The notes under the pieces: generated by a model
What the model was told of the DNA's origin: nothing
Databases searched by the model: none
The model's input: the letters and a program-made list of their open reading frames with translations, nothing else
In this document: positions 8,799 to 28,930 of the stretch, piece after piece
How the letters are laid out: every line of letters starts with the position of its first letter
How positions within the stretch are numbered: position 1 is the stretch's first letter
From: a virus
IMG/VR virus record: IMGVR_UViG_3300032087_002512
Span: 1-46,582 of that record
Length of the DNA stretch: 46,582 nt
Reading direction: 5' to 3' (one strand)
Position numbers and translations under genes: made by a program

Positions 8799-8810
8799 TC
8801 ACACGTGTGA
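8799..8810. promoter_or_regulatory. Dispersed palindrome TCACACGTGTGA, site 1
   Basis: Perfect 12-bp palindrome, in the control region, 143 bases before the first rightward gene. First of 13 identical copies confined to the rightward arm; proposed protein-binding site. Confidence 0.8.
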
Positions 8811-8913
8811 GAATATGCGACAAGGGTAGGGTAACGCTGGCATACACGCTGGCATTCCTGTAGACTGAGTATTCCAGTCGGGGTTCGGCTGGTCGGGTTT
8901 ACCGTGTACCCTT

Positions 8914-8925
8914 TCACACGTGTGA
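8914..8925. promoter_or_regulatory. Dispersed palindrome TCACACGTGTGA, site 2
   Basis: Perfect copy ending four bases before the GGAG ribosome-binding site of the first rightward gene. A bound protein here could block the end of the promoter region or the leader of that transcript. Confidence 0.8.
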
Positions 8926-8941
8926 GAACGGAGTTAAGACA

Positions 8942-9658
8942 ATGGCAACAACGAAAACGGCAGGTAACAAAGCAGCGGCAAAGGCTAACGAGTTCGCACT
9001 CAAAGGCTTCCCAAGTGCCAAACTTAAGACCGCGTTCAATAAGATGGCGGGCGCTGCCAATGAGGCAGACGGGGCCAATGAACAGAAAGCGCTTGCGGCC
9101 TTTGATGTGTGTGAACTGGCTGAGCGCTTCCGTGATAGCAACATGGTCGAAGGCGCGGACTGCGAAACCATCGCGAAGGGATGGAGCGAGCATCTTAAGT
9201 CGGTAGCTATGGACTTGGCTGTATCGGGCAACAAGTTTGCCGAATTGAAAGAAGGCAAGGAAGGAGAGGCCGCGACAGCACGACTCACGGCATACGGTGC
9301 CAACGTTGCTAGTGTGGCGAAAGGTCTGATTCAGGAGATGGTACTTCTTGATTGCCTCCCCGCGTGCGATGGTATCGAAGAAGGAACGGCAGCAGAGTCC
9401 TATCGGGATGTGCGGAAGGTAGTAGAGGCAAAGCGCGCTGAACGTCGCCGTAACGAGAATCCAGACGCGGCACTCCTTGCTGACAGTAAGGCCGAGTGTC
9501 GTGAGGCAGCGGCTGCGCTTCTCGATACCGTATTCGAATCTGGTGACTATAACCTGATTGATTCACTTGCCGAAGCGCTGCGGGATATGCGCGCGGCGAC
9601 AATCGCGCAGAATCAGGCGCAAGATGAGGCAGACGACGAAGTAGCGGAAGCCGCGTAA
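8942..9658 (+). CDS. First rightward early protein, unknown function
   Basis: This 238-residue protein has an Ala-rich basic start (MATTKTAGNKAAAKANEF), a helical middle and an acidic tail (QAQDEADDEVAEAA). No known domain was recognised. The ATG has GGAG eight bases upstream. The gene stands alone: two palindromes lie in front of it, a strong hairpin terminator follows it, and another palindrome and promoter-like sequence come next. First-expressed, separately terminated genes in T7-like phages often make abundant host-takeover proteins, but this one could also be a DNA-associated or virion-unrelated structural factor. Confidence 0.85.
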   Translation: MATTKTAGNKAAAKANEFALKGFPSAKLKTAFNKMAGAANEADGANEQKALAAFDVCELAERFRDSNMVEGADCETIAKGWSEHLKSVAMDLAVSGNKFAELKEGKEGEAATARLTAYGANVASVAKGLIQEMVLLDCLPACDGIEEGTAAESYRDVRKVVEAKRAERRRNENPDAALLADSKAECREAAAALLDTVFESGDYNLIDSLAEALRDMRAATIAQNQAQDEADDEVAEAA

Positions 9659-9675
9659 ACACTAGCGACCCGCGC

Positions 9676-9712
9676 GGGGCGGCTGGCCATTGGCTGGCCG
9701 CCTCACTTCTTC
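9676..9712 (+). terminator. Rho-independent-type terminator after the first early gene
   Basis: GGGGCGGC (9676-9683) pairs with GCCGCCTC (9697-9704) with one G-T wobble, and an inner GCC/GGC can extend the stem. The T-rich stretch CACTTCTTCTTT follows. It starts 18 bases after the stop codon of the first rightward gene, so it probably isolates that gene from the next promoter. Confidence 0.7.
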
Positions 9713-9714
9713 TT

Positions 9715-9726
9715 TCACACGTGTGA
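9715..9726. promoter_or_regulatory. Dispersed palindrome TCACACGTGTGA, site 3
   Basis: Perfect copy immediately after the terminator hairpin and ending four bases before a sigma-70-like -35 hexamer, the position of a classical operator. Confidence 0.8.
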
Positions 9727-9729
9727 GGA

Positions 9730-9757
9730 TTGAGTCTATTATTAGCCCGCTTAGAAT
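9730..9757 (+). promoter_or_regulatory. Sigma-70-like promoter next to palindrome site 3
   Basis: TTGAGT (9730-9735), a 16-base spacer and TAGAAT (9752-9757) match the host sigma-70 hexamers at four of six and five of six positions. Transcription would start near 9764 and read the early gene string from 9799 on. The spacing is one base short of ideal. Confidence 0.45.
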
Positions 9758-9798
9758 ATAGGCGGCCTATCATGGTCTTAAAGATGAGGTACAAAACA

Positions 9799-10035
9799 AT
9801 GCTACAAGTACAAAAAGGTTGGACAGAGATTGTGGAGTCATGGATGCGCGTAGATCAGCGTATGGTCGGCAAGGATAGCGACGGGCATGACGTACTAGAG
9901 ATTACAGAGACACCTATCACACGTGTGAAGGCGACCTGTATCAATAACGATGGTAGTGAGATAGCTTGCTACGCTACAAACCCTAAGATGCTTGAGGGCC
10001 TGAAGCGCTTGCACGTATTCGCTGCTGGTCGGTAG
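9799..10035 (+). CDS. Early hypothetical protein
   Basis: A 78-residue protein from ATG 9799 (GAGG nine bases upstream); in-frame ATGs at 9772 and 9784 would add a few residues with poorer sites. It has a Trp-rich N-terminal helix (GWTEIVESWMRVDQRM) and a segment PITRVKATCINNDGSEIACY in which palindrome site 4 encodes TRVK. No family recognised. It is the first gene after the sigma-70-like promoter at 9730 and is followed within three bases by the next gene. Confidence 0.7.
   Translation: MLQVQKGWTEIVESWMRVDQRMVGKDSDGHDVLEITETPITRVKATCINNDGSEIACYATNPKMLEGLKRLHVFAAGR
9917..9928. promoter_or_regulatory. Dispersed palindrome TCACACGTGTGA, site 4
   Basis: Perfect copy inside the 78-residue early gene, read there as codons for T-R-V-K. 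Confidence 0.8.
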
Positions 10036-10037
10036 TC

Positions 10038-10256
10038 ATGAGCATATTCAAATCAGCTACGCTCAAATGGAATAACCTCCTGCGCTTCGATGTACAGTCG
10101 GAGTTCGGGACGGTTATTGCAACGGGACTCGCGTATGGTCGCGCTTGCTACCTTGCCTCGATGTATCGGGATGAGTCAGAGCATGACTACTACGTTGTGG
10201 ACAGCAACACCAAACGTGCGGTGTCCGAGGTCTATGGGTTCCGCTATGACAGTTGA
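10038..10256 (+). CDS. Early hypothetical protein
   Basis: A 72-residue protein beginning MSIFKSATLKWNN and ending GFRYDS, with no recognised motif. It follows the previous stop by two bases, lacks an obvious ribosome-binding site and is probably translated by coupling. Aromatic residues are frequent in the C-terminal half (DYYVVDSNTKRAVSEVYGF), suggesting a compact beta-rich fold. Function unknown. Confidence 0.65.
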   Translation: MSIFKSATLKWNNLLRFDVQSEFGTVIATGLAYGRACYLASMYRDESEHDYYVVDSNTKRAVSEVYGFRYDS

Positions 10257-10452
10257 GAAGGAGGAACAACTCTTTAGGATGTACAAGCGCCGCGCATGGG
10301 CGATGAGGTCTGCATACAATATGCAATGGACTAATCGTCAGACGTTGGCTTTCGTAGATAGGTTGGTCAAGGCATCTGCTGTTGAGGGCATTGATGACCG
10401 CGACCTGCGCGTACTAGTGAGGATGTACAATCGTGAAATACAACATGATTGA
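10246..10452 (+). CDS. Early hypothetical protein, basic
   Basis: A 68-residue protein from ATG 10246 (MTVEKEEQLFRMYKRRAWAM) that overlaps the previous gene by 11 bases in another frame. It is helical and Arg-rich, and its C-terminal half (DRLVKASAVEGIDDRDLRVLVRMYN) resembles a small helical bundle. No helix-turn-helix could be called with confidence. The start is chosen because upstream codons in this frame merely shadow the previous gene. Confidence 0.6.
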   Translation: MTVEKEEQLFRMYKRRAWAMRSAYNMQWTNRQTLAFVDRLVKASAVEGIDDRDLRVLVRMYNREIQHD

Positions 10453-10455
10453 AAC

Positions 10456-10467
10456 TCACACGTGTGA
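10456..10467. promoter_or_regulatory. Dispersed palindrome TCACACGTGTGA, site 5
   Basis: Perfect copy in the 32-base gap before the zinc-finger gene, ending five bases before its GAGGAG ribosome-binding site. Confidence 0.8.
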
Positions 10468-10484
10468 ATATTGAGGAGAATGAC

Positions 10485-10700
10485 ATGGTAGTAGAAGGCA
10501 AGGTATGCCCCACGTGCAAAGGCACTGGGCACGATCACAAGGGTCAACCCGTTGTGAAAATGGTTCCGTTCACTGACAAGCATGAAGCCTACGTCAGTAA
10601 CGAGGAGTTCGGACAAAGGCGATATCACAAGACTATCGCCCAAGGTTCGGGTTGCCTCACGTGCGGTGGCATTGGCATGGTCAACATGGAGGTAGCGTAA
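10485..10700 (+). CDS. Small DnaJ-type zinc-finger protein
   Basis: The 71-residue protein has two CxxCxGxG-type knuckles, CPTCKGTG near the start and CLTCGGIG near the end, the pattern of the DnaJ central zinc domain. The 40 residues between them bear no J-domain. Small stand-alone proteins of this type are frequent in phage early regions and may bind one zinc ion and a protein or nucleic-acid partner. ATG 10485 was chosen for GAGGAG six bases upstream. Palindrome site 5 lies just before this site. The stop overlaps the next start (TAATG). Confidence 0.8.
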   Translation: MVVEGKVCPTCKGTGHDHKGQPVVKMVPFTDKHEAYVSNEEFGQRRYHKTIAQGSGCLTCGGIGMVNMEVA

Positions 10701-10774
10701 TGGCAACTTCATTCTGCATCACCATAGGGTTGTGCGCTGTACTCATCATCATTGACTACTTCGATGAGACGTAG
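10700..10774 (+). CDS. 24-residue membrane peptide
   Basis: This reading frame encodes MATSFCITIGLCAVLIIIDYFDET, a single hydrophobic helix with an acidic tail. GGAGG lies seven bases upstream of ATG 10700, and the ATG overlaps the previous TAA as TAATG, both strong signs of translation. It is the first of four consecutive short membrane-segment genes. It may insert in the inner membrane early in infection; the role is unknown. Confidence 0.65.
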   Translation: MATSFCITIGLCAVLIIIDYFDET

Positions 10775-10973
10775 AGAGTACATACTCGTAGCATCAATCA
10801 TGGCCGTTACACTTTCGAGTGTAGCGGTCATTGTTGAGACTGCGTTGCTACATTCGCAAGGGCAAACAATCTCAAAGCGTGAGCATCGGCCAATTAAACC
10901 TGAGTGTTCACATCTCTATAATGTCAACGCCCATGATGATTGGGCTAAATGTATGGGAGTACAATACAGATGA
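10764..10973 (+). CDS. Small membrane-anchored protein
   Basis: A 69-residue protein from ATG 10764, overlapping the 24-residue peptide gene. It starts MRRREYILVASIMAVTL with a positive N-terminus, then a transmembrane or signal-anchor helix (about residues 7-30), then a polar domain with two cysteines (PECSHLYN and AKCMGV) that would lie in the periplasm by the positive-inside rule. A disulfide between them is plausible. It could act in superinfection exclusion or envelope modification; no homologue is recognised. Confidence 0.65.
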   Translation: MRRREYILVASIMAVTLSSVAVIVETALLHSQGQTISKREHRPIKPECSHLYNVNAHDDWAKCMGVQYR

Positions 10974-11065
10974 TTCTTTTCATGATTGGAGTGGTGTTGT
11001 GCCTGACACCGATATGGCCAGTGGGCGTTGCGGTTCTCGCATTCGCTACACTGTGTCGTTGCTAA
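10970..11065 (+). CDS. 31-residue membrane peptide
   Basis: The frame begins MILFMIGVVLCLTPIWP and ends ATLCRC, almost entirely hydrophobic with three cysteines. The start overlaps the previous stop as ATGA (10970-10973). There is no separate ribosome-binding site, so it would depend on coupling. Too short for standard gene calling; support comes from overlap and composition only. Confidence 0.5.
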   Translation: MILFMIGVVLCLTPIWPVGVAVLAFATLCRC

Positions 11066-11066
11066 G

Positions 11067-11153
11067 ATGTACTATCGAGGCGACCTGAAACTCATTCTTC
11101 TTATCGGCGCATACCTGCTAGTTGTAGCTTTGCGTTGGTTTGAAGTTATCTAA
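11067..11153 (+). CDS. 28-residue membrane peptide
   Basis: The frame begins MYYRGDLKLILLIGAYLL and ends RWFEVI, one hydrophobic helix flanked by charged residues. It starts one base after the stop of the previous peptide. No clear ribosome-binding site. It completes a run of four short membrane proteins at 10700-11153 that fills this interval without gaps. Confidence 0.45.
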   Translation: MYYRGDLKLILLIGAYLLVVALRWFEVI

Positions 11154-11207
11154 GCGCCCGCTAAGGGTGCTGTACAAACCGGCGAAACGCTTGCATTGGA
11201 GGGCGTA

Positions 11208-11453
11208 ATGTCATATACTATACATAGTGTCATTGGCTTTACAGAGAAGGCGTTTATCCTTCACACGTGTGAATTGACGGAGGTAAGTATGTCACACTTA
11301 AATAAGCTGGAACGGATCGAGCGCAAGCGCCGTAAACAGCAGAAACAGGAAGATTGGAAGGGCAACCGTAGCCCACAACCGTACAAGCGTACTGATGAGG
11401 AACTAGAGTGGGAGGAGGAGAATGAATCAGCAACTCGTACACAACGGGGATAG
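11208..11453 (+). CDS. Early hypothetical protein, very charged
   Basis: From ATG 11208 (GGAGGG just upstream) this encodes 81 residues. A second in-frame ATG at 11289 also has GGAGG five bases upstream and would give a 54-residue form that begins MSHLNKLERIERKRRKQQ. Palindrome site 6 lies between the two starts and is read as H-T-C-E in the long form. The shared part is highly charged (Lys/Arg then Glu) and probably an extended helix. Two good starts either side of a regulatory palindrome suggest that two products are possible. No family recognised. Confidence 0.6.
   Translation: MSYTIHSVIGFTEKAFILHTCELTEVSMSHLNKLERIERKRRKQQKQEDWKGNRSPQPYKRTDEELEWEEENESATRTQRG
11261..11272. promoter_or_regulatory. 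Dispersed palindrome TCACACGTGTGA, site 6
   Basis: Perfect copy with the 14-bp extension TTCACACGTGTGAA, lying six bases before the ribosome-binding site of the internal start at 11289. Confidence 0.8.
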
Positions 11454-12081
11454 CATAATACAGGCCCCAAATGCTAACATACATGGGATCTATCAGTGTT
11501 GCTCTGCGGCGCTACTTCATGGAGTCTCTGGGTACTGTACAACAGCAAGGTTTGCACCCAAGGACACAGTGCCGGGTGCGATGCGTACAATGGACCCCGC
11601 ACACTGTGGTTCTTTCGCAGAGTACAAGAAAGAACGTGCGCGTAGGCATCAGATGTTCGGGATGCCGTACGATCACGCCATGTGTGCTGTCCTTGAGATA
11701 CTGTACAACAAGGCCAAACACGGTGAGGGAGGCAGCAATATGTATGCGTCCTCAAGCTATGCCACTAAAACGTGGTTCATTGCTGATCGCCGACGTACCG
11801 AGGGCAGCGTGTCCTGTATGAACTTCATGCTCTGGTTACAAGAGCAGGGAGTACAACAAGTAGGACGCATCCACATCTCCCCATGGAGGGATGGTGCCCA
11901 CGGCGGTGAGTGCAAGGGTGGAGTGTATGCTCCAAACCTCACACGTGTGAAAGAACTGCTAGATCGCAAGCTAGCTGAACTAAACGCCCATGCTGATTGG
12001 GTATTCTTTGATTACTTTGGCCTACACCCGAAGCAGATGGGTGAGAACTACGTGGCCGATGAAGTGGGAGCACAATGGTGA
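11422..12081 (+). CDS. Hypothetical Cys-containing protein upstream of the peptide-ligase cluster
   Basis: A 219-residue protein beginning MNQQLVHNGDSIIQAP, preceded by a strong GGAGGAG site. It has nine cysteines and several His/Trp motifs (MDPAHCGSFAEYKKER, HISPWRDGAHGGECKGG, DWVFFDYFGLHP). No known domain was recognised. The spread of Cys and His could be a metal site or a thiol chemistry centre, but no spacing fits a named family. It lies just upstream of the cyclotransferase gene, so it may belong to the same pathway. Palindrome site 7 is inside it and encodes TRVK. Confidence 0.75.
   Translation: MNQQLVHNGDSIIQAPNANIHGIYQCCSAALLHGVSGYCTTARFAPKDTVPGAMRTMDPAHCGSFAEYKKERARRHQMFGMPYDHAMCAVLEILYNKAKHGEGGSNMYASSSYATKTWFIADRRRTEGSVSCMNFMLWLQEQGVQQVGRIHISPWRDGAHGGECKGGVYAPNLTRVKELLDRKLAELNAHADWVFFDYFGLHPKQMGENYVADEVGAQW
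11939..11950. promoter_or_regulatory. Dispersed palindrome TCACACGTGTGA, site 7
   Basis: Perfect copy inside the Cys-containing gene, read as T-R-V-K. Confidence 0.8.
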
Positions 12082-12103
12082 ACTGGACAGGATGGAAAAG
12101 ACT

Positions 12104-12541: not shown

Positions 12542-12857
12542 GCACTACTGGTTCCAAGCGGTGATTAACCGCAATGGGGTGATGATTACTCGACAGGGTG
12601 CTATGGCTGCTGACTACGCCTACGAGGTGAAGGACAACATCTTCGAGAGAGCCAAGACAGAGTGGAAGTTCCCAATCGAGAGTCTTGAGATTTACCTCAT
12701 GACCAAGGAAGGTGAGCTGGGCGAGCTGATTCTAACTACAAAAGGATTGGAAACCAAAACTGTCACACGTGTGAATACTCCTGACCCTAAACCGTGGGAG
12801 TATGGCACGTACTACTCAAAACGTAACTACCCAACCATTAAACTGGAGGATACCTAA
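12516..12857 (+). CDS. Hypothetical protein in the peptide-ligase cluster
   Basis: A 113-residue protein from ATG 12516, overlapping the cyclotransferase gene by 26 bases. It begins MSKATSKAKHYWFQAVINRN and has a mixed alpha/beta look with SLEIYLMTKEGELGELILTT. No motif recognised. Palindrome site 8 encodes TRVN within it. Its place between the cyclotransferase and the first amidoligase makes it a candidate accessory of that pathway. Confidence 0.7.
   Translation: MSKATSKAKHYWFQAVINRNGVMITRQGAMAADYAYEVKDNIFERAKTEWKFPIESLEIYLMTKEGELGELILTTKGLETKTVTRVNTPDPKPWEYGTYYSKRNYPTIKLEDT
12763..12774. promoter_or_regulatory. Dispersed palindrome TCACACGTGTGA, site 8
   Basis: Perfect copy inside the 113-residue gene, read as T-R-V-N; last of the dense group at 8.8-12.8 kb. 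Confidence 0.8.
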
Positions 12858-13706
12858 ATGGAAAAGATTCCATGCAACCCATCTGTCGGCGCAGATGTTG
12901 AATACCTGCTCATGAACATGGAGACTCGTGAGATCGAACCTGCGTGTGGCCTCATTGGCGGCACAAAGGAGGACCCCTTACTTCTCGAGTCTCCTCGTGG
13001 TGGCGGCTACGCGATACAAGAGGACAACGTGATGGTGGAGTGGAACATCCCTGCGGCAGAGTCGTGGGATGTGCTCTACAACAACATCCTGCACGCCAAG
13101 GACTTGGTGAATGACCACGTACAGTTAGCCGTAGGCCCGGAATACAGGGCGGTCTGTCAGCAAGAGCATCACTTCACTCCGCTTCAGCTAGACTCGGAGC
13201 AAGCGCGTACCTTCGGGTGCGAGCCTGACTTCGATGCCTACCTCGGTGGAGTACAACGGCAGGATGGTGCAGCGGCTACTATCGGTAACTGGCGCACCTG
13301 CGGAGGGCACATACACATCGGTGGTGACTTCCAATGCCCTGACTTTGTTGCTGCTCTATTCTGTGAGCTGTACATCTCAGTGTTCGGGCGCGCCCCGATT
13401 GACTACAGTACACAGAGAGCTAAATGGTACGGGAAGCCGGGGATCTTCCGGCCTAAGCCGTATGGAATCGAGTACCGTACACCGGACAATATGTGGACGG
13501 ATAACCCAAACCATATTGAGCTGGTAGGGCAGTACGCTATACTGTGTGCCCAGTACCTGACCAACACCTCAGCGGATGAGCTACAGTCTACATTCCGCAA
13601 GATACCGTGGGTGCAGATCCGTGGGTACCTCGATGGTACCAAGCGTACTAGCACCACTCGCTCTCACATCATCCGCGCTTGCCGCAATGCAGGAGTCAAC
13701 GCATGA
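12858..13706 (+). CDS. Amidoligase, phiEco32-like COOH-NH2 ligase type 2
   Basis: A 282-residue protein of the glutamine synthetase/amidoligase fold. It has the acidic Mg/ATP motif GADVEYLL near the N-terminus (about residues 11-18), the second motif GGHIHIGGDF (about residues 150-159) and the arginine motif GIEYRTPDNMW (about 205). This order is that of the phage phiEco32-like COOH-NH2 ligases (PF14395). Such enzymes form amide bonds between a carboxylate and an amine using ATP. GGAGG precedes the start by nine bases. The substrate is unknown; peptide tags on proteins or cell-wall peptides have been proposed for the family. Confidence 0.85.
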   Translation: MEKIPCNPSVGADVEYLLMNMETREIEPACGLIGGTKEDPLLLESPRGGGYAIQEDNVMVEWNIPAAESWDVLYNNILHAKDLVNDHVQLAVGPEYRAVCQQEHHFTPLQLDSEQARTFGCEPDFDAYLGGVQRQDGAAATIGNWRTCGGHIHIGGDFQCPDFVAALFCELYISVFGRAPIDYSTQRAKWYGKPGIFRPKPYGIEYRTPDNMWTDNPNHIELVGQYAILCAQYLTNTSADELQSTFRKIPWVQIRGYLDGTKRTSTTRSHIIRACRNAGVNA

Positions 13707-14311
13707 TTAACGTAGATAAGGTTCCCGCTCGTGACTGGAACCTGTACTTCGGTGGAGTGTATATGCAATACAGGGGTACACTTGCATATGTGCGCCCCTA
13801 TGCCTATCAGGACCCAGAGGAAGGGAGGACGCGCACTACACTCCGAGTACAACGAGAGGGGATGAAGGACAAGTTCCTCTGGCGCAAGGGTGACCTCAAG
13901 GAGCTGCTGGTGTGGTGGCCTCGTGCTGGGGCCTACAACATCAGAGGCTCGGCGGTGTACGTGGCACGTAAGGCAACTCGGTCAATGAAGAAGTCCTGTT
14001 GCCCAGACTCTCACTACTACGTGAAGTGGGGAGCGCAGGGGATGAGTCCGGCGCGGTACTTGACCCTGAAGAACCACCACTTCGATACATGGGAGGCCGC
14101 GAAGCAAGCCATAGACAATGGCAAGCACGCTAGGGCACTGTCCCGTAACCTGATCGTGGCCAACTCGGCTGCGAAAGGGGTGTACCAACTGGTCTACCGA
14201 GGTGATGAGGTAGGTACACTGGAGGGGAGTGATTACCACCCACTGAATGAGCTATCACCACTTACAAAGCTGGTGTATCAAGAACTAATAGAGGAGGGAG
14301 TTGTATGCTAA
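13703..14311 (+). CDS. Unknown protein between the two amidoligases
   Basis: A 202-residue protein from ATG 13703 overlapping the previous stop (ATGA) and the next start by seven bases, so it is tightly part of the operon. It starts MINVDKVPARDWNLYFGG and is rich in Tyr, Trp and Arg, with a CC pair (KKSCCPDSHYYVKW) and a helical stretch HFDTWEAAKQAIDNGKHAR. No known domain was recognised. Because it is locked between two ligases, it is a good candidate for a dedicated partner or acceptor of the reaction; this is inference. Confidence 0.75.
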   Translation: MINVDKVPARDWNLYFGGVYMQYRGTLAYVRPYAYQDPEEGRTRTTLRVQREGMKDKFLWRKGDLKELLVWWPRAGAYNIRGSAVYVARKATRSMKKSCCPDSHYYVKWGAQGMSPARYLTLKNHHFDTWEAAKQAIDNGKHARALSRNLIVANSAAKGVYQLVYRGDEVGTLEGSDYHPLNELSPLTKLVYQELIEEGVVC

Positions 14312-15234
14312 ACTGGGACCAGCAAATAGGTCCGATGCTTGGTCTACGTATGCGGTACCCCGAGCTACGGCTTGGGATTGAGCTAGAGTACGAGCGCTAT
14401 CATGGGGACTTCCCAGAGCTAGCGTGGTGGAGTTGTGAACGTGATGCGTCCCTACGGAACGGAGGGGTTGAGTACATTAGCAATCCCCTGCTGCCCGAGG
14501 ATCTCGACGAAGCACTGGACGAGGTACAAGAGTCCATTGACGATAATCAACTCGAGGCCTCGTGGCGGTGCGGAGGGCACACCCACGTGAACGCAATGTA
14601 CTGGACGTTCAAAGAGCTACTCACGTACACTACGCTGTATGCTCTGGTTGAGCCGTATATATTCGGGAACTTTGCTCCGGGTAGGGAGTCTAACCACTTC
14701 TGCGTACCCTTGTGGAGTAACCACCAACTGATTGACAGGCTAGCCCACGATGCGGTGAGGCTGCGCGCTAAGAAGGGAATGGCGCACTCGCTACAGTTGC
14801 TTGGGTGCAACAAGTACTCTGCGCTGAACTTCAAGCCCCTCAAGGTGCTGGGCACAATAGAGTTCAGGCATATACCGAGTACAACGAACATGGCTGTCAT
14901 ACAGAACTGGTGTGCGTTCCTGATGCGTAGTGTGGCGTATGCCAAGACGTTCAGGGACCCAGAGTCGGTAGTTGCGGCATATGAGGACAACGGCATAGAG
15001 AATATGCTGGAGAACCTCGGCCTTCACACGTGTGAGATTGACAGGGAGACTACCAAGGATGCGTACATCGCGGCCAACATGGTGGTAGGACACGACCCGC
15101 GCAAGTGGCAGGACTTGGACTGGACTATGCCAGAACCATTGGAGTGGAGGGATGAATTGCTCGACATCCTAGCGATAGAAGAAGAGTTTGAAATAGAAGA
15201 TTACCACCCAGACTTAGATGAGGAGAGAATGTAA
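14305..15234 (+). CDS. Amidoligase, second COOH-NH2 ligase (Amidoligase_2-like)
   Basis: A 309-residue protein with the amidoligase motifs in order: LGIELEYERY (about residues 19-28), GGHTHVNAMYW (about 90-100) and GTIEFRHIPSTTN (about 188-200). The ExE and HxH plus E-x-R pattern matches the putative amidoligase family (PF12224) and differs from the first ligase, so two different amide bonds or successive steps are likely. The C-terminal 60 residues are acidic. Palindrome site 9 lies inside, encoding HTCE. GGAGG stands upstream of the start. Confidence 0.85.
   Translation: MLNWDQQIGPMLGLRMRYPELRLGIELEYERYHGDFPELAWWSCERDASLRNGGVEYISNPLLPEDLDEALDEVQESIDDNQLEASWRCGGHTHVNAMYWTFKELLTYTTLYALVEPYIFGNFAPGRESNHFCVPLWSNHQLIDRLAHDAVRLRAKKGMAHSLQLLGCNKYSALNFKPLKVLGTIEFRHIPSTTNMAVIQNWCAFLMRSVAYAKTFRDPESVVAAYEDNGIENMLENLGLHTCEIDRETTKDAYIAANMVVGHDPRKWQDLDWTMPEPLEWRDELLDILAIEEEFEIEDYHPDLDEERM
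15024..15035. promoter_or_regulatory. Dispersed palindrome TCACACGTGTGA, site 9
   Basis: Perfect copy inside the second amidoligase gene, read as H-T-C-E. Confidence 0.8.
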
Positions 15235-15235
15235 T

Positions 15236-16684
15236 ATGTGCGGAATAGTAGGATACATTTCAATGAAGGACAGCGACCATGTCCATGCTAAGCGACACTT
15301 CAGTGATTACGCGCTTATGCTTGATACGTTGCGTGGTAACGATTCCACAGGGATCATACGTGTGAACAACGACTTTGATGTTCATACAAACCACACGACC
15401 ATGTCAGGGCGTAAGTACGTTCACTCTGTCGCTTACGACTCGTGGATGGCTGAGCGGGATAGCTGGGCGTTCATCGGGCACAACCGGGCAGCGACTGCCG
15501 GATCAGTGAAGCTCGAGAACGCCCACCCGTTCACATTCGGTGACGTGACGATGGTACATAACGGTACATTGTGGCAGGGCGGCAAGTCCATGCCGGGGTA
15601 CGACCCCAAGCTAGAAGTGGACTCAATGCAGATAGCCCGAGCCCTGTCAGAGACAGACTGTGACGCTGCTGCGGTGTCCAAGCTCTTTGAGAAGATAGAC
15701 GGGAGCTTCTGTCTGGTGTGGGTAGATCGACGGGATGGGTCAGTGAACATGGCTCGTAACTCGTCACGGCCCTTACACTTCGCGTACAACCGCGCCAAGA
15801 ACCTGATGTGGTTCATGTCCGACGGTACACACCTTCATGCAATTTCACGGTCTATGGAGAAGTCCTCGGGTGCGATAGATACTATCTACCAGATGGACAA
15901 GCAGAAGATCCTGAAGTTCAAGAAGGGAAACATGGTACCGGAGGTTACTGGCTTCGTCCCTTTCGTTCGACCCGCAGTCACTTACAATACAGCCACCAAA
16001 GTGGACAGTGGGAAAGCCCTCGCGGTAGCAACACAAAGGTGGCAGGACAACATACGGAAGGCAAATGGGGCACACTCTACGGAGACTGGCACAGATTCTG
16101 GAACTAAGGCCATGATTAACGGCCACCGCCGGATTGTGCCCAAGAATCACATAGATGTGCTGGGCCAGTACTTCGACGTAGATGGGGACACCATACTGAG
16201 GTTCGAGCCGGAGACATGGATGGAGATGGCCAACAAGCAATGTGTTGTGACCGGGCTGTTCTCCCATCCAAAGTGGGGGGACTCAGTGTGGCCAATGACC
16301 CTGTACAACGTACCCCTGGTGATAGTGAACGCTTACTGTGACTATGCGTGGGGTGTGAAGGCTAAAGGAGTAACATCCTGTGGGTCTGACTTCGAGTACG
16401 GGTCGGTGGTGTCCATGCTAGGTGAGCTGTACTGCTACGACTGGCGTACAATATCGCCTGACGAGCAAACTCACACGTGTGAAGAAGAGGTTGAGGAGCT
16501 GGTGGTAGGGCCTGATGAGACTCTGATGGACAAGACAGAGTGTATGCAGTTGATAGCGAAAGGGTGCATACAATGTAACGGAATCATATCGTGGGAGGAT
16601 AGGTCATTCTCCACCATAGTGAACGAAGGTCGGGATGTGCTCTGTCCGGGGTGCTCCGATGAATGGAAGAGGGAGGTAGTATGA
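15236..16684 (+). CDS. Class II glutamine amidotransferase with C-terminal zinc ribbon
   Basis: A 482-residue protein starting MCGIVGYIS, with Cys2 as the N-terminal nucleophile after Met removal, then RGNDSTG, HNRAATAGSVKLENAHPF, HNGTL and EVDS, all hallmarks of Ntn-type GATase II domains (residues 2 to about 230). These release ammonia from glutamine. No synthase domain of the GlmS, PurF or AsnB kind follows. Instead about 170 unassigned residues lead to a C-terminal pair of CxxC motifs (CIQCNG and CPGCSD), a probable zinc ribbon. AGGAGAG precedes ATG 15236 by nine bases. It likely supplies ammonia to, or transfers glutamine-derived groups for, the ligases next to it. Confidence 0.88.
   Translation: MCGIVGYISMKDSDHVHAKRHFSDYALMLDTLRGNDSTGIIRVNNDFDVHTNHTTMSGRKYVHSVAYDSWMAERDSWAFIGHNRAATAGSVKLENAHPFTFGDVTMVHNGTLWQGGKSMPGYDPKLEVDSMQIARALSETDCDAAAVSKLFEKIDGSFCLVWVDRRDGSVNMARNSSRPLHFAYNRAKNLMWFMSDGTHLHAISRSMEKSSGAIDTIYQMDKQKILKFKKGNMVPEVTGFVPFVRPAVTYNTATKVDSGKALAVATQRWQDNIRKANGAHSTETGTDSGTKAMINGHRRIVPKNHIDVLGQYFDVDGDTILRFEPETWMEMANKQCVVTGLFSHPKWGDSVWPMTLYNVPLVIVNAYCDYAWGVKAKGVTSCGSDFEYGSVVSMLGELYCYDWRTISPDEQTHTCEEEVEELVVGPDETLMDKTECMQLIAKGCIQCNGIISWEDRSFSTIVNEGRDVLCPGCSDEWKREVV
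15354..15365. promoter_or_regulatory. One-mismatch variant of the dispersed palindrome
   Basis: TCATACGTGTGA differs from the 12-bp palindrome at one base (T for C). It lies inside the glutamine amidotransferase gene and is read as I-R-V-N, the same frame as most coding copies. It may be a decayed or weak site. Confidence 0.4.
16471..16482. promoter_or_regulatory. Dispersed palindrome TCACACGTGTGA, site 10
   Basis: Perfect copy inside the glutamine amidotransferase gene, read as H-T-C-E. Confidence 0.8.
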
Positions 16685-17475
16685 AGATTAGGTTTGAGCC
16701 ATACAAGCTCAAGTCAAAGAGCTGTCGTGCCATTGCGGATCACCTTGGAGTACTCCGCACTACTCCTAGGCAGGTCCGTAGGCATGGTGACTTTGACGTA
16801 ATCATTAACTGGGGCTCATCTCAGAGGAGGTTCCCAAATGCAAGATACATCAACGATCCAGAAGCCGTGGAACACGCTAGTGATAAGAAAGCCTCTTTTA
16901 AGGTTTTCAAGTGTAGTGGAGTACCATGCCCTGATTGGACAACTGATGCGGCTGTCGCATCTCAGTGGAGAGAAGATGGGCTGGTCATTGTTGCGCGAGT
17001 GCTTCTACGTGCAAACCAAGGACGAGGCATTGTTATTAGTAGTATCGGAAATGGCATCCCGCTCCCGGCTGCGCCACTCTATACTGTGTACAATAAGAAG
17101 GCCGAGGAGTACAGAGTTCACGTCATGGCGGGAGAGGTTATCGACGTGGCTCAGAAGAAAAAGAAGAGGGAGGTAGATAATGAAGAAGTCGATTACCAAA
17201 TACGTAGTTATGATAATGGCTGGGTGTTCTGCCGTGATGGAGTGGACTGTCCTCAGCCTGTACGTGATGCTGCTGTTGCCGCTGTCAGTTGTCTTGGTCT
17301 TGATTTTGGGGCTGTTGATGTTGGCTGGAACCTTAAGCGAGAGTCTGCATTCGTATTTGAGGTCAACACGGCTCCGGGTATTGAGGGGACTACACTCGAG
17401 CGATACAACGAAGGACTGCGAGCTTTACTGCCAGCACTCAGAACTGGACGCTATGCAACGAGGAGAGCACAATGA
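16681..17475 (+). CDS. ATP-grasp ligase
   Basis: A 264-residue ATP-grasp enzyme. The ATP-binding loop lies around residues 110-120 (RANQGRGIVIS), a middle motif is YRVHVMAGEVIDVAQKKKKR, and the metal-binding end is LDFGAVDVGWN followed by FVFEVNTAPGIEG, where the E-x-N residues bind magnesium. Such enzymes (RimK or D-Ala-D-Ala ligase type) make peptide-like bonds through an acyl phosphate. Its ATG overlaps the stop of the amidotransferase gene as ATGA. With the two amidoligases it gives three ATP-dependent amide-forming enzymes in one operon. The substrate is unknown. Confidence 0.88.
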   Translation: MKIRFEPYKLKSKSCRAIADHLGVLRTTPRQVRRHGDFDVIINWGSSQRRFPNARYINDPEAVEHASDKKASFKVFKCSGVPCPDWTTDAAVASQWREDGLVIVARVLLRANQGRGIVISSIGNGIPLPAAPLYTVYNKKAEEYRVHVMAGEVIDVAQKKKKREVDNEEVDYQIRSYDNGWVFCRDGVDCPQPVRDAAVAAVSCLGLDFGAVDVGWNLKRESAFVFEVNTAPGIEGTTLERYNEGLRALLPALRTGRYATRRAQ

Positions 17476-18383: not shown

Positions 18384-18565
18384 GATACTTCACACGTGTG
18401 AAAGATTTACATAACAACAAGATCGGGACGGTACTCGACCACCTCTCCGTGCAGTTCACGGCGGAGTTCGACGATAAAGTCCGATTCTTCTTCTATAACG
18501 ATAAGGGGCTCACCTACGAGCCGATAATGGAGAACGAACATGGCAAAACAGATCACAGTAAATAA
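18380..18565 (+). CDS. Hypothetical protein with a GTG start
   Basis: A 61-residue protein from GTG 18380, overlapping the previous TGA as GTGA, with GGAGG four bases upstream. It reads MRYFTRVKDLHNNKIGTVLD, has a beta-rich look resembling a small SH3-like barrel (KIGTVLDHLSVQFTAEFDD), and carries palindrome site 11 as TRVK. No family recognised. Confidence 0.6.
   Translation: MRYFTRVKDLHNNKIGTVLDHLSVQFTAEFDDKVRFFFYNDKGLTYEPIMENEHGKTDHSK
18390..18401. promoter_or_regulatory. Dispersed palindrome TCACACGTGTGA, site 11
   Basis: Perfect copy (14-bp extended palindrome TTCACACGTGTGAA) inside the beginning of the 61-residue gene, read as T-R-V-K. Last copy before a 7.4-kb gap covering the replication genes. 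Confidence 0.8.
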
Positions 18566-18746
18566 CTATACTTATAGTTCTATTGCGTCTGCTTGGCGGG
18601 CGCTGGCACCAGTGGATGATTATGGTAAAATCCTGCCCCTCATCACGGTACGGTGGCGTTTGAAACACGGCTGGGACGGATGGCATGCGTTTACAACACC
18701 ACCAATCGACCCTAAAATACGTAGGAATTACAAAGAGTTACGATAA
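18540..18746 (+). CDS. Hypothetical protein before the primase gene
   Basis: A 68-residue protein beginning MAKQITVNNYTYSSIASAWR and containing TVRWRLKHGWDGWHAF. The pattern of a small YSSIxxAW helix followed by a WRLKxGW turn resembles short DNA-binding modules found beside homing endonucleases (NUMOD/AP2-like), but the match is by impression only. It overlaps the previous gene by 26 bases and is the last gene before the proposed promoter at 18751. Confidence 0.6.
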   Translation: MAKQITVNNYTYSSIASAWRALAPVDDYGKILPLITVRWRLKHGWDGWHAFTTPPIDPKIRRNYKELR

Positions 18747-18750
18747 GCAC

Positions 18751-18788: not shown

Positions 18789-18798
18789 GAGGTCGCTT

Positions 18799-20819: not shown

Positions 20820-20829
20820 AGGAGAGTTA

Positions 20830-21300
20830 ATGAGGATTACACAAGAGATCATGGACGTAGTAGAGTCGTTCGAACTGAACGAGGACGCTAAGCAGGACGC
20901 ATACGTCAAGCTGTTGGAGAGTGACCAGAGAGAGTTTGCTAACAACGCTCACCGGGACAACTACATTCGACAGTTGGTCTTCTGGACTCGCAACAACGAG
21001 TCTGCTAAGGAGGACAACAGGGCACGTCTGCTGGAGGAGAATCAGGACCTGATACGTGACCTGTACAACAGTGGCACAGATGAGTTTGCTGAGGACCCGG
21101 CAGCGGTCATCGAAGCAGAGGAGAGGATGGATAACTTCCTCGAGATACTGAGCGACACGTACCGACGTACATTTACAAGACTTTACCTCGATGGACTGAC
21201 GCCACAAGATTTGGCTGACGAGGAGGGAGTGGCAAGGAATGCCATAGATCAACGAGTCCACAACATCAAGTTACTAGTGAAGGAGAATTTTAATGTCTAA
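20830..21300 (+). CDS. ECF-like RNA polymerase sigma factor
   Basis: A 156-residue protein with the two-domain layout of small sigma-70 (ECF) factors. Region 2-like: DAKQDAYVKLLES then DNYIRQLVFWTRNNESAKEDN, with the aromatic patch expected for promoter melting. Region 4-like, a helix-turn-helix: YRRTFTRLYLDGLTPQDLADEEGVARNAIDQR followed by VHNIKLL. It would direct host RNA polymerase to phage promoters. It lies directly after P2, which shares its sequence with P1 and P3, and it overlaps the SSB gene by eight bases. Phage phiEco32 also uses its own ECF-type sigma factor. The match is by eye. Confidence 0.8.
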   Translation: MRITQEIMDVVESFELNEDAKQDAYVKLLESDQREFANNAHRDNYIRQLVFWTRNNESAKEDNRARLLEENQDLIRDLYNSGTDEFAEDPAAVIEAEERMDNFLEILSDTYRRTFTRLYLDGLTPQDLADEEGVARNAIDQRVHNIKLLVKENFNV

Positions 21301-24506: not shown

Positions 24507-24768
24507 CGAACTTAAGTACTACGAGATCCGTATGATTAAAGTAGTTGATGGTGTACCTATCATGTGTGAGGACGGAGAGTATCGCAAGCGCAACGGATAC
24601 TCCGTGTACAACAAGGAGACTGACACGCACGAGCATACGACCACGCTGTTGCCGGGAGCAATCTTTCAGGCACAGCACTTGGACGCTACGTTGGACGGGC
24701 TGTTGAACCCTGTGCCGATACCTGATGGCCTCGCTGACATGCCCGTCGAAGATGTGCAGTTCAACTAA
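24487..24768 (+). CDS. Hypothetical protein
   Basis: A 93-residue protein (MLTKANNELKYYEIRMIKVV) with a beta-rich middle (DGEYRKRNGYSVYNKETDTH) and no known motif. AGGAG lies nine bases upstream. It overlaps its upstream neighbour by 20 bases and the next start by one base. Function unknown. Confidence 0.7.
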   Translation: MLTKANNELKYYEIRMIKVVDGVPIMCEDGEYRKRNGYSVYNKETDTHEHTTTLLPGAIFQAQHLDATLDGLLNPVPIPDGLADMPVEDVQFN

Positions 24769-25676: not shown

Positions 25677-25929
25677 GTCGCACTTCTCACGGAGAGCAAG
25701 GTTCTTCATGGTAACGGACACCAACACAGAGGATGGCTTTGATGCCTACCCCTGTGAGGTACCGGCACGTACTATCACACGTGTGAAGGCCATCAAGGAC
25801 ATAATTGATAGGATGTATGACTCGTTTGATCTCAACCCGGCACCGGAAGAGTGCACGCAGAAGGAAGCAGACCTGCTGACCGAGCTGCTGGATGAGATAT
25901 TTGGAGGAGCAACTGATGGCGAAGAATGA
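25669..25929 (+). CDS. Hypothetical protein
   Basis: An 86-residue protein (MVKSHFSRRARFFMVTDTNT) with a basic start and an acidic helical end (ADLLTELLDEIFGGATDGEE). AAGGAG lies five bases upstream. Palindrome site 12 is inside it as TRVK (RTITRVKAIKDII). It overlaps the exonuclease gene by eight bases. Function unknown. Confidence 0.7.
   Translation: MVKSHFSRRARFFMVTDTNTEDGFDAYPCEVPARTITRVKAIKDIIDRMYDSFDLNPAPEECTQKEADLLTELLDEIFGGATDGEE
25775..25786. promoter_or_regulatory. Dispersed palindrome TCACACGTGTGA, site 12
   Basis: Perfect copy inside the 86-residue gene, read as T-R-V-K; first copy after the replication genes. Confidence 0.8.
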
Positions 25930-26317
25930 ACTGACACCTGAGCAGGACGTACTGACACGAGAGTTCCTCGTTGACGTAGCACTGTCTGAGAATGCCTTTA
26001 GCGATCACCCTGCCCTGAAGAGGACACTGATCGGCTACTGCTACCGGCTTCTGGGGTACCAACGCCTACCTGATGGCCGCTTCATCTCTGAGAATATCAA
26101 TGTGAAGTACAAGCTGGGCGGGACCATATCATTAGAGGACTACCCTGATGAATGGCAGAAGGACTACGCGAATGCCCTCATGAAAGCGGGCAAGGGAGAG
26201 CTAGATGAGAGGCAGAAAGGGTTTACCTTTAACAGTGATAGTACCAACGAAACCGATAGCGGCAAGCAGACCAAGGATACCCCGCTTTGGAAAACCTTAT
26301 TTTCCAAAGACTTATAA
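25916..26317 (+). CDS. Hypothetical protein overlapping the RusA gene
   Basis: A 133-residue protein from ATG 25916, with GGAGGAG six bases upstream. It begins MAKNELTPEQDVLTREFLVD and has a helical N-terminal two-thirds (GYCYRLLGYQRLPDGRF). The last about 38 residues, polar and low in complexity (FNSDSTNETDSGKQTKD), coincide with the start of the RusA gene in another frame and are probably a flexible tail. Function unknown. Confidence 0.7.
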   Translation: MAKNELTPEQDVLTREFLVDVALSENAFSDHPALKRTLIGYCYRLLGYQRLPDGRFISENINVKYKLGGTISLEDYPDEWQKDYANALMKAGKGELDERQKGFTFNSDSTNETDSGKQTKDTPLWKTLFSKDL

Positions 26318-26621
26318 GCGATGGAGAGACGACGCGGAACGACTCGTAGATGCGAGCGAGCTGAAAGCGGACTATCCTGTACATGTGGAGGTGCTGTTTG
26401 CAATACCTCGCGCACGTACCTCGACGCTGATAGTACCACAAGGCGACGGGGACAACTTCGAGAAGGCACTGTACGATATGCTGCAACGGAAGGGATATCT
26501 TATGGACGACAAGTGGATCACTTCGGGTACGTGGCGGAAGCGATTCCTCCCTTACGGAGCGACGGGATACACGAGGGTAACGATACGGGAGGATACCGAT
26601 GAGCTTGACATTAGCGAGTGA
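26205..26621 (+). CDS. RusA-type Holliday junction resolvase
   Basis: A 138-residue protein of the RusA family. It opens MRGRKGLPLTVIVPTKPIAA, followed by the RPRIPRFGKPYFPKTYKRW segment typical of the family, and has the catalytic acidic motif GDGDNFEKALYDML (about residues 80-93), then MDDKWI with further acidic residues. It resolves or trims branched DNA before packaging. GGAG lies just before ATG 26205; the first 113 bases overlap the preceding gene in a different frame. Length fits the family. Confidence 0.88.
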   Translation: MRGRKGLPLTVIVPTKPIAASRPRIPRFGKPYFPKTYKRWRDDAERLVDASELKADYPVHVEVLFAIPRARTSTLIVPQGDGDNFEKALYDMLQRKGYLMDDKWITSGTWRKRFLPYGATGYTRVTIREDTDELDISE

Positions 26622-26832
26622 GCGACAAGTCGGAGGTGTGCACTACAAGAAGATGGCTATTCAGCCAGTTGAGTTCATTTACAGGAACGAACTCAACTGG
26701 CTACAAGGCAATGCCATCAAGTACATCTGCCGACACGCAGCCAAGGATGGTCTCGACGACTTGCTGAAGGCCAAGCATTACTTGGACCTTCTGATTGAAT
26801 GGGAGTACGGGCATGACAACACCGAAGACTGA
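26599..26832 (+). CDS. DUF3310-type protein
   Basis: A 77-residue protein with the DUF3310 signature: GGVHYKKMAIQP, FIYRNELNWLQGNAIKYICR, then HAAKDGLDDLLKAKHYLDLL. The family is common in phages and is sometimes listed as nucleotide kinase-like, without proven activity. GGGAGG stands six bases before ATG. It overlaps the RusA gene by 23 bases and the next gene by 20. Confidence 0.85.
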   Translation: MSLTLASERQVGGVHYKKMAIQPVEFIYRNELNWLQGNAIKYICRHAAKDGLDDLLKAKHYLDLLIEWEYGHDNTED

Positions 26833-26986
26833 TCTGCTGCACTACTACCGTGCGCTGAAACTCATGCACGATGTGATTGATGAGAGCCCTGAGCTACTGA
26901 ACACATCTGAGTATGAGATATTTCTGCTAGCATGGACAATCATTAATGACACACAGATAAAGGACTATGACTATGAGACTGAATAA
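26813..26986 (+). CDS. Hypothetical small protein
   Basis: A 57-residue protein from ATG 26813 (MTTPKTDLLHYYRALKLMHD), helical and acidic, ending DYDYETE. It overlaps the DUF3310 gene by 20 bases and the phosphoesterase gene by 20 bases. No family recognised. Confidence 0.65.
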   Translation: MTTPKTDLLHYYRALKLMHDVIDESPELLNTSEYEIFLLAWTIINDTQIKDYDYETE

Positions 26987-27689
26987 AGGTAAGAATATAG
27001 TGCTGGTCATCCCTGACCTTCAGATACCGTACGAGCATCCCGATGCCTTGAAGTTTATCATGGCTGTCGAGGAGCTGGTGGTACCGCACGAGGTGATTTG
27101 CATTGGGGATGAGGTTGACCAGATGGCACTGAGTAGGTTCGATGCTGACCCTGATGGGGATGGGGCAGGACCTGAGCTACGCAAGGCACTCAAGAAACTC
27201 GCTAAGTGGTACGACAGGTTCCCCGAGGTGAAGGTGTGCACGTCCAACCATACGGGACGTGTACAGAAGGCAGCGTTTCATGCTGGAATACCAGAGGCCT
27301 ACATGAAGTCTGTTAATGAGTGGATGGAAGCGCCGGAAGGATGGCAATGGGAGGACTCGCATGAGATAGATGGCGTACGATACGAGCATGGAGATGCTCA
27401 GGGTGGTATGTACGCAGCTAGGAATCTAGCCATACGAAATCGTCAGTCTACAGTCATTGGACATCACCACTCACACGGTGGCGTGTTCTACGTAGCTAAC
27501 GAGAAGGAGATGATCTTTGGAATGAACTCGGGCTGTCTGATTGATGCCGGAGCTATTGCGTTTAAGTACGCTAGGCTCTCAGCATTCAAACCTACACTCG
27601 GCTGTGGCGTAGTCGATCACGGTGTGCCTATGTTCGTGCCCATGCTGTTGAACGCCAAAGGACGGTGGACAGGTGAGGTACAGCTATGA
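26967..27689 (+). CDS. Calcineurin-like metallophosphoesterase
   Basis: A 240-residue phosphoesterase. Motifs in order: IPDLQIPYEHPDAL (a D-x-Q where the family usually has D-x-H), IGDEVDQMA (GDxxD), SNHTGRV (GNH[E/D]-like) and IGHHHSHGG (GHxH). The first substitution may shift the metal site, as in other phage members. Relatives cut phosphodiester bonds in nucleotides or nucleic acids. The start could also be the ATG two codons later. Substrate unknown. Confidence 0.85.
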   Translation: MTMRLNKGKNIVLVIPDLQIPYEHPDALKFIMAVEELVVPHEVICIGDEVDQMALSRFDADPDGDGAGPELRKALKKLAKWYDRFPEVKVCTSNHTGRVQKAAFHAGIPEAYMKSVNEWMEAPEGWQWEDSHEIDGVRYEHGDAQGGMYAARNLAIRNRQSTVIGHHHSHGGVFYVANEKEMIFGMNSGCLIDAGAIAFKYARLSAFKPTLGCGVVDHGVPMFVPMLLNAKGRWTGEVQL

Positions 27690-27838
27690 TACGCAAGTGG
27701 CACAGCTACGTGTGGACTGCCTGTGGTGCAGGGTGGTTCGTGCTATACATGATTACGCAGCACGTAGGTGCACTCTTAGCTACCGTCGGCTGCCTAGCCG
27801 TGGCTGGAGTTATAACGATATTAGAGGAGTTGATATGA
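27686..27838 (+). CDS. 50-residue two-helix membrane protein
   Basis: The frame begins MIRKWHSYVWTACGAGWFVL and has two hydrophobic segments (about residues 9-23 and 26-45), ending LEELI. Its start overlaps the phosphoesterase stop (ATGA) and its stop overlaps the next start (ATGA at 27835-27838), so it fits exactly between two supported genes. It could be a small inner-membrane protein; no family recognised. Confidence 0.65.
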   Translation: MIRKWHSYVWTACGAGWFVLYMITQHVGALLATVGCLAVAGVITILEELI

Positions 27839-28419
27839 GTATCAAAGAGTTGCAAGAAGAGGATGTCTATGCTATCATGCAGTCTGATATGAAGCTGTGG
27901 GAACAGGCATCGACGACTCACGAAGGCAACGCCATCGTGAAGCAGTTGATACTTCCCTTCGGCATAGGTGAGTTCTCAGTCAAGTTTGAAGGAGTAGACA
28001 ATGGAATCAAAAGACGAGCCGCAGCAGAACAGTGGGGTGCGATGGTGCGAGAAAGAATCAAGGACCGTATCGACGACGAATCCGTTACTGCACGGGCTAA
28101 GCAAGCAGCAGCTCTTCGAGAGAGTGAGGAAGAACCTGAGACACTGGGCGAAGCTGATAGTGGACACGGCTCTGCAAGCAGCCCCATCGCAGGGGTCGGA
28201 GCTAAGTCGTCAGTACAAGCGGAGACTTCTTCAGAAGCAGTACAAGCACATGCTGTCGCTGATGAAGGAGATCAAGGACCCGCAGGAACTGATTTCGTTG
28301 CTCGAGCAGAGTGGCTTCGTGGCAGGATTAGCGAAGGAGAGCGCAAGATCAAAGCTCAGAGACGAGAACTCAAAGCCCTCGAAGCAGCCCTCGCCGTGAT
28401 GGAGGGTGAGGATGATTAA
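27835..28419 (+). CDS. Hypothetical protein, with another gene nested in a second frame
   Basis: A 194-residue protein from ATG 27835 with GAGGAG upstream. The N-terminal 80 residues look globular (MSIKELQEEDVYAIMQSDMK), the middle is low-complexity and rich in Ala, Ser, Gly and Glu, and the last 40 residues form a coiled coil (GRISEGERKIKAQRRELKAL). From position 28001 a second reading frame with its own ribosome-binding site overlaps 399 bases of it. No family recognised. Confidence 0.75.
   Translation: MSIKELQEEDVYAIMQSDMKLWEQASTTHEGNAIVKQLILPFGIGEFSVKFEGVDNGIKRRAAAEQWGAMVRERIKDRIDDESVTARAKQAAALRESEEEPETLGEADSGHGSASSPIAGVGAKSSVQAETSSEAVQAHAVADEGDQGPAGTDFVARAEWLRGRISEGERKIKAQRRELKALEAALAVMEGEDD
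28001..28399 (+). CDS. Nested overlapping gene, basic helical protein
   Basis: A 132-residue frame lying wholly within the 27835-28419 gene but in another frame. GGAG stands seven bases before ATG 28001. It encodes a basic, helical sequence (LSKQQLFERVRKNLRHWAKL, YKRRLLQKQYKHMLSLMKEI) whose codons are strongly GC-ending (AAG, CAG, CTG, GAG), as would be expected of a selected frame. The host frame over the same bases is the low-complexity part. Both may be expressed; this one could be an accident, so confidence is moderate. Confidence 0.5.
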   Translation: MESKDEPQQNSGVRWCEKESRTVSTTNPLLHGLSKQQLFERVRKNLRHWAKLIVDTALQAAPSQGSELSRQYKRRLLQKQYKHMLSLMKEIKDPQELISLLEQSGFVAGLAKESARSKLRDENSKPSKQPSP

Positions 28420-28930
28420 GCAGTTCCTGTTCGCCTTGGGCATGAACCTTACGAAGATACCCGTCATTGTGGCGGGTCTCTTTGTGGTTCCTTTCATGTA
28501 CAGGTTGCGTGCTGTACCGGCACAGAACATGCCAGCTAAGTATAGACCGTGGCTTAACCCGGAGGACTGGACAGGAGGGTACAGGGAGTTTCCCCCCGAG
28601 TACGGCTGTGTCCCACCTGACCTACAGGAGAGGTACTCAGGTCTCTGGGGCTTCTGGAAGTACCATGCACTCCGTAATGGTGGGGACGGACTGCGTAACT
28701 ATGATTGGCATGTGGCCCGGTACGAGGAGGATGCTATGTCCTTCCGCTATCATAAGTACGGGTACTATGTAGAGCAGGGAATCTATGGCTCTTGGATGTG
28801 GTCTTTCACACGTGTGAAGATCAAGTTCGGGTGGCGTATGAAACCTACTGATTCACTTAACGGCTACAACCCCAACAGCATCCGATGGGTGTACGGGGCT
28901 GGCCCAACATGGAGCTTTAGACTACGATGA
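28412..28930 (+). CDS. Membrane-anchored hypothetical protein, last rightward gene
   Basis: A 172-residue protein from ATG 28412 (GAGG six bases upstream). One N-terminal transmembrane helix (FALGMNLTKIPVIVAGLFVV, within about residues 5-30) is followed by a Tyr/Trp-rich soluble part (WTGGYREFPPEYGCV, GLWGFWKYHALRNGG). Similar proteins are widespread in phages without known role. Palindrome site 13 is inside it as TRVK. Its stop at 28930 abuts the stop of the leftward holin gene. Confidence 0.75.
   Translation: MIKQFLFALGMNLTKIPVIVAGLFVVPFMYRLRAVPAQNMPAKYRPWLNPEDWTGGYREFPPEYGCVPPDLQERYSGLWGFWKYHALRNGGDGLRNYDWHVARYEEDAMSFRYHKYGYYVEQGIYGSWMWSFTRVKIKFGWRMKPTDSLNGYNPNSIRWVYGAGPTWSFRLR
28806..28817. 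promoter_or_regulatory. Dispersed palindrome TCACACGTGTGA, site 13
   Basis: Perfect copy (TTCACACGTGTGAA) inside the last rightward gene, about 110 bases before the arms meet; read as T-R-V-K. No copy lies beyond it. Confidence 0.8.

Follow-up and report, generated by a model that had tools for sequence, protein, structure and literature searches.

Dispersed lineage-specific palindromes as candidate stoperator-like sites in the early arm of podovirus-like phages

The virus contig IMGVR_UViG_3300032087_002512 (positions 1 to 46,582; hereafter ‘the window’, meaning the whole 46,582-nucleotide stretch analysed) carries a 12-letter perfect palindrome, TCACACGTGTGA, in 13 exact copies and one single-mismatch copy, TCATACGTGTGA, dispersed along one of its two arms. 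Many relatives carry dispersed palindromes of their own, often at the same codons of homologous genes. We propose, with a probability of roughly 0.6, that these palindromes are operator or roadblock (‘stoperator-like’) sites through which a dimeric protein encoded by the phage regulates the early arm, and that the specificity of this protein differs between lineages. The original prediction, made from the window alone, had suggested dispersed repressor sites. The palindromes are confirmed, the case for them is stronger than in the original description, and the repressor-site parallel is right in kind: a role as dispersed regulator sites is well supported by same-codon conservation with sequence turnover, by restriction to the early arm and by bracketing of the first early gene, denoted gene 1.

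A repeated exact and mismatch search of the window returned all 13 predicted coordinates as well as the single-mismatch copy at 15354. No copy has two mismatches, which gives the family a sharp boundary. The recomputed expectation is 0.0027 per window, in line with the earlier figure of about 0.003, and corresponds to a Poisson log10 P of about −43, a value uncorrected for the number of palindromes scanned, although the margin is enormous. Together with the shuffled windows, in which no exact matches occurred compared with 13 in the window, this expected count rules out a chance origin. An RNA element was also rejected as the identity of the palindromes, with no match in Rfam.

The window is organized as two opposed arms. 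The rightward arm encodes an amidoligase/GATase/ATP-grasp cluster, primase, DnaB-like helicase, an extracytoplasmic function (ECF)-like sigma factor, a T7-type single-stranded DNA-binding protein, family A polymerase, exonuclease and RusA, and the leftward arm encodes portal, terminase, capsid and tail genes; judged from this content and by analogy, the rightward arm is probably the early arm. As predicted, the leftward packaging and structural arm is free of copies, all 14 sites lying between 8.8 and 28.8 kb, and in a set of six genomes, the window plus five relatives whose contigs are long, the early arm holds 73 of 75 sites. Each plus-strand copy is followed directly on its 3′ side by a purine (14/14). 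Copies occur both between and inside genes, as had been stated: near gene 1 they are intergenic, and elsewhere they lie mostly within open reading frames (ORFs), where they translate mostly as TRV[K/N] or HTCE. The predicted gap across the replication genes (18.4–25.8 kb) holds for the window phage but does not extend to its relatives, whose primase, helicase, PolA and exonuclease genes contain sites.

TCACACGTGTGA is shared with three IMG/VR contigs, G002, G005 and G035 (11, 4 and 4 copies, respectively). More distant relatives lack it, and many carry a different dispersed palindrome: TTAGTACGTACTAA in G001/G033 (20 sites), GTTAACnGTTAAC in G016 (13 sites), GTAGTTTAAACTAC in G023 (12 exact copies), TTTAACGTTAAA in the isolate Stenotrophomonas phage StenR_269 (10 exact copies), GTTGTACGTACAAC in G009, CTTGTACGTACAAG in G008/G017/L036, CTTAACATGTTAAG in G015, AGTAGTnnnnACTACT in G022/G024, GCTAATnnATTAGC in G029 and GTATACAnTGTATAC in the Vibrio breoganii phages 1.015.O and 1.034.O. 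The palindromes of G011 and G013 are likely GTYATACGTATRAC and GTAACACGTGTTAC, in favour of which the AT-rich repeats of these contigs were dropped. In the lineages closest to the window, the TCACA half-site persists and its spacing varies (TCACACGTGTGA; TCACACnGTGTGA in L019; TTCACACnnGTGTGAA in G006; CTCACAnnnTGTGAG in G003 and G007), and changes of site between related phages proceed in small steps, for example through spacer lengths of 0, 1, 2 and 3. The site sets of L019, G003, G007, G018 and G013 are weaker, with 3–4 copies each. No dispersed palindrome was detected in G010, G019, G025–G028 and G031, and a search of G010 aimed at hidden sites produced no convincing candidate. The G013 contig (IMGVR_UViG_3300049489_000098) has, in addition, at least 7 copies of another repeat, AACGCGCGGGTCT.., which forms a separate family and is not palindromic.

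Comparison with relatives, which had been put forward as a check on the palindromes, showed that positions are held at the same codons while the sequence of the site turns over. Sites were placed on protein alignments, and a coincidence was scored when lineages of different site class had sites within two columns of each other. This gave 22 same-codon coincidences, compared with 2.0 ± 1.4 under random placement, a number never reached in the randomization (0/2000 trials); with related site classes merged, 14 were observed compared with 1.9 expected. The coinciding codons are primase 69, PolA 241, ATP-grasp 37, amidoligase 271–274, exonuclease 255, and GATase 420 and 48. At ATP-grasp codon 37, three different 14-bp palindromes, TTAGTACGTACTAA, CTTAACATGTTAAG and CTTGTACGTACAAG, occupy one place, with flanks that are strongly similar between the CTTAACATGTTAAG and CTTGTACGTACAAG genomes. 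The residues encoded at the sites change with the DNA site class (LVRT versus LNML), which places selection on the DNA. The TTAGTAC and TTGTAC types share the centre GTACGTAC, and for such close classes the site itself is partly conserved.

Gene 1 (8942..9658, + strand) is the first early gene and encodes an Ala-rich protein of 238 amino acids that is predicted to be mostly helical. Counting as bracketed any gene 1 with a class-specific site at most 500 bp upstream and another at most 250 bp downstream, we found bracketing in 14 of 17 genomes, compared with 0.85 expected, and no site inside gene 1. An intrinsic-terminator-like hairpin (9676..9704, + strand) lies directly 3′ of gene 1 and precedes the third palindrome copy; such a hairpin, adjoining the downstream site, recurs in many genomes. 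In G009 (IMGVR_UViG_3300032087_003052, about 9.2–12.5 kb), gene 1 is inverted with respect to the early arm and sites still bracket it. The family unites window-type and G001-type members in a joint hidden Markov model built from both, and an independent profile–profile comparison of the two types gave an E value of 3e-4 with a probability of only 40%; counterparts in G022/G023, StenR_269 and 1.015.O were assigned by position alone. In AlphaFold2 models of two members, helices predominate and the structural elements follow one another in a similar order (predicted local distance difference test scores of 80 and 74). Among the top Foldseek matches of one model, none of them significant, winged-helix proteins of the MarR type recur; they do not recur with the second model.

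On the mechanism we propose, the palindromes would be bound across the whole early arm by a sequence-specific DNA-binding protein, probably a dimer, that the phage encodes. Upstream of gene 1, the copies would be classical operators governing the main early promoter region as well as gene 1, and copies inside the operon would be roadblocks or nucleation points at which host RNA polymerase is slowed or halted, turning early transcription down as the phage switches to its late genes. The specificity of the regulator would drift between lineages, and the sites would be rewritten to match, many of them in place. The sites are conserved, symmetric, lineage-specific and restricted to the early arm, with one group around gene 1 and the others within the operon; this suits a dimeric regulator that controls the early promoter region and impedes elongation along the arm. 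We infer that the protein is a dimer of phage origin, that it represses and does not activate, and that it acts at the early-to-late switch. The lead candidate for the site-binding protein is the gene 1 product, an assignment that we hold tentatively, at somewhat less than even odds; it is nominated by its position and not by a domain, because the models resemble no solved fold significantly.

Several points weigh against this picture. The coincidence counts include related genomes, so the events are not independent, and the randomization disregards the spacing between sites. Gene 1 has no Pfam or PHROG match and no recognizable DNA-binding domain, and Foldseek searches with the two gene 1 models gave no significant match. 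G010 carries a gene 1 homologue yet no detectable sites. Finally, gene 1 is not alone in accompanying the sites, as the ECF-like sigma factor likewise co-occurs with them.

It is unlikely that the sites are instead bound by a host protein, either a regulator or a nucleoid factor, with lineage differences that mirror different hosts. In favour of a host protein, a classical phage repressor was not identified: no HTH_3 (CI-type) domain was found in 14 genomes, and a search of 135 early proteins for classical regulator families gave one MarR-like match, although a divergent helix–turn–helix (HTH) could escape detection. Isolates with different sites also infect different genera (Stenotrophomonas and Vibrio), the metagenomic relatives being without assigned hosts. 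Against it, the sites keep to the early arm and flank a phage gene on both sides, and their small-step changes are as expected for a co-evolving phage protein.

We consider it similarly improbable that the sites serve DNA organization, partition, replication or packaging, in the manner of parS, iterons or condensin loaders, rather than transcription. The central CACGTG, the roughly kilobase spacing and the many in-gene sites would suit such a role; however, more than half of the genome has no sites, the sites track the early transcription unit even in G009, where the gene 1 module is inverted, and they show no iteron-like clustering. The parS sites of ParB, like Noc sites, are palindromes, and parS has a CACGTG-like core, but the window sequence is not known to match parS, and a full ParB was not found. 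The ParB/parS idea in the original prediction is not supported: the only candidate in the window is a late-arm ORF (4202–4744; 180 amino acids) with a ParB_N-like match below the family cut-off, which is not conserved with the sites and went undetected in relatives with the same or equivalent ones (no match in G001, G002, G009, G016 and G023, in a search without a positive control). No second DNA-binding domain was found in this ORF in Pfam. ParB_N matches are also present in G003, G005 and G035, and none was found in G001, G002 and G009.

A still less probable reading is that the ECF-like sigma factor, or its complex with host RNA polymerase, reads the palindromes as promoter elements. Its ORF (20830..21300, + strand) shows region 4 in Pfam just below the cut-off and region 2 by eye in an alignment, and the family has 22 members among the relatives, in variable gene order; it accompanies the sites in nearer relatives and is undetected in site-less G010. 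However, no homologue was detected in the site-bearing G022, G023, StenR_269 and 1.015.O, the recognition helix, compared by eye, fails to sort with site class, and the sites are symmetric. No conserved −10-like or other second promoter element was found at a fixed distance from the sites, which argues against promoters, and a promoter array was rejected on this ground. Just as improbable is recognition of the palindromes by a nuclease, recombinase or modification enzyme of the phage, for self-marking or for modular exchange at gene borders, where many sites of StenR_269 and 1.015.O exactly fall, because a 12–16 bp specificity with lineage turnover and many in-gene sites would be unusual for such enzymes, and gene 1 clustering and early-arm restriction would be left unexplained.

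Among known systems, the temperate Streptomyces phage phiC31 has conserved inverted repeats (CIRs), palindromic sites for a known repressor that are scattered in its early region. The sites described here share the palindromic form and the dispersal in the early region; unlike phiC31, the phages here look lytic and the binder is only a candidate. The L5-type stoperators of the temperate Cluster A mycobacteriophages L5, Bxb1 and Trixie are 13-bp asymmetric, transcription-oriented sequences, bound at 20–30 sites genome-wide by a monomeric two-domain repressor; some lie at promoters and most do not, and their sequence varies between related phages, tracking the regulator (PMC6550527, PMC9283540). 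The L5 parallel drawn originally holds for the functional kind, in that there are many near-identical, dispersed, repressor-like sites with a sequence that varies between related phages, and fails in the particulars: the window sites are perfect palindromes instead of oriented 13-mers, the early arm holds all sites of the window and 73 of 75 in the six genomes, often inside genes, and no tyrosine integrase or full ParB was found (serine integrase was not searched). An HTH_3 repressor was not found either, although a divergent HTH could be missed. KorB, a cytidine triphosphate-dependent ParB-family clamp, binds short, dispersed OB operators on plasmid RK2, near to or far from promoters, and acts over distance (PMC11790492). 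The present sites are likewise short and dispersed, but no KorB-like protein with ParB_N and a central HTH was found. In its manner of working the system appears to resemble the stoperators of L5, the CIRs of phiC31 or the operators of KorB, yet it departs from defining features of the L5 and ParB systems. A partial literature search found no earlier description of these sites, and the site strings appeared in no relevant paper.

Individual copies illustrate both settings. Copy 1 (8799..8810) is centred 137 bp upstream of gene 1 and copy 2 (8914..8925) lies immediately upstream of the gene 1 ribosome-binding region, a spacing of 115 bp that is 112 bp in G002. Copy 3 (9715..9726) is directly 3′ of the gene 1 terminator, and its left half (TTCACA) coincides with a promoter-like first hexamer. 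Further along, copy 4 (9917..9928) lies within an ORF and translates as TRVK, copy 5 (10456..10467) is at the start of a zinc-finger-like ORF, and copies 6 (11261..11272), 7 (11939..11950) and 8 (12763..12774) translate as HTCE, TRVK and TRVN. Copy 9 (15024..15035) falls at codon 242 in the C-terminal part of the amidoligase gene, in which other-class sites occupy codons 271–274 in five relatives and codon 263 in one. In the GATase gene, the single-mismatch copy (15354..15365) is at codon 48, next to an own-class site of G007 at codon 49, and copy 10 (16471..16482) is at codon 420, where G002 has the same site and G006 has TTCACACnnGTGTGAA. Copy 11 (18390..18401) is upstream of ORF 18540–18746, whose G002 homologue is likewise preceded by a copy, copy 12 (25775..25786) is 3′ of the 5′–3′ exonuclease gene, and copy 13 (28806..28817) is close to the end of the early arm.

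By polymerase and helicase, the nearest annotated relatives are StenR_269, the Vibrio phages 1.015.O and kin, and VpV262. Protein similarities place the window phage in a podovirus-like group related to Zobellviridae, with the related polymerase, helicase and primase and the two opposed arms of that type (formal family placement aside). Megablast against phage records returned no near relative. A scan of genome contigs, of limited sensitivity, turned up no clear prophage of the window type, its matches being mostly weak or on short contigs, and no tyrosine integrase domain was found in 14 genomes. The window phage and its kin are probably lytic, and the missing domain makes a role in early shut-off more likely than one in lysogeny. 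No phage RNA polymerase was identified; the single-subunit search was uninformative, as its control matched nowhere. VpV262 (L009) and Vibrio phage 1.070.O (L011) have weaker AAAGTnACTTT palindromes in both arms, which may be a degenerate or different system. The amidoligase/GATase/ATP-grasp cluster (12858–17475), with a gamma-glutamyl cyclotransferase upstream, is kept in most relatives and is probably a phage peptide- or protein-tagging pathway. In L206 (5762–6082; MG592418.1 39761–40081), annotated clustered regularly interspaced short palindromic repeat spacers fall within a coding sequence and may be a simple tandem repeat.

These observations allow a bolder interpretation, which we regard as possible though doubtful: that probably lytic podophages use a new class of regulator, the gene 1 product with no recognized fold, which governs the early arm by way of dispersed palindromic operators and whose specificity repeatedly switches while all 4–20 sites are rewritten, many in place. 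If true, this would mean immunity-like groups in phages without known lysogeny. The sites make it a testable question how early genes are shut off in phages of this type, and how the specificity of a DNA-binding protein can shift if upwards of ten sites have to shift with it. Same-codon positions with alternative palindromes provide a natural series of site switches, and because StenR_269 and the Vibrio breoganii phages carry their own versions, these questions can be tested in cultured phages.

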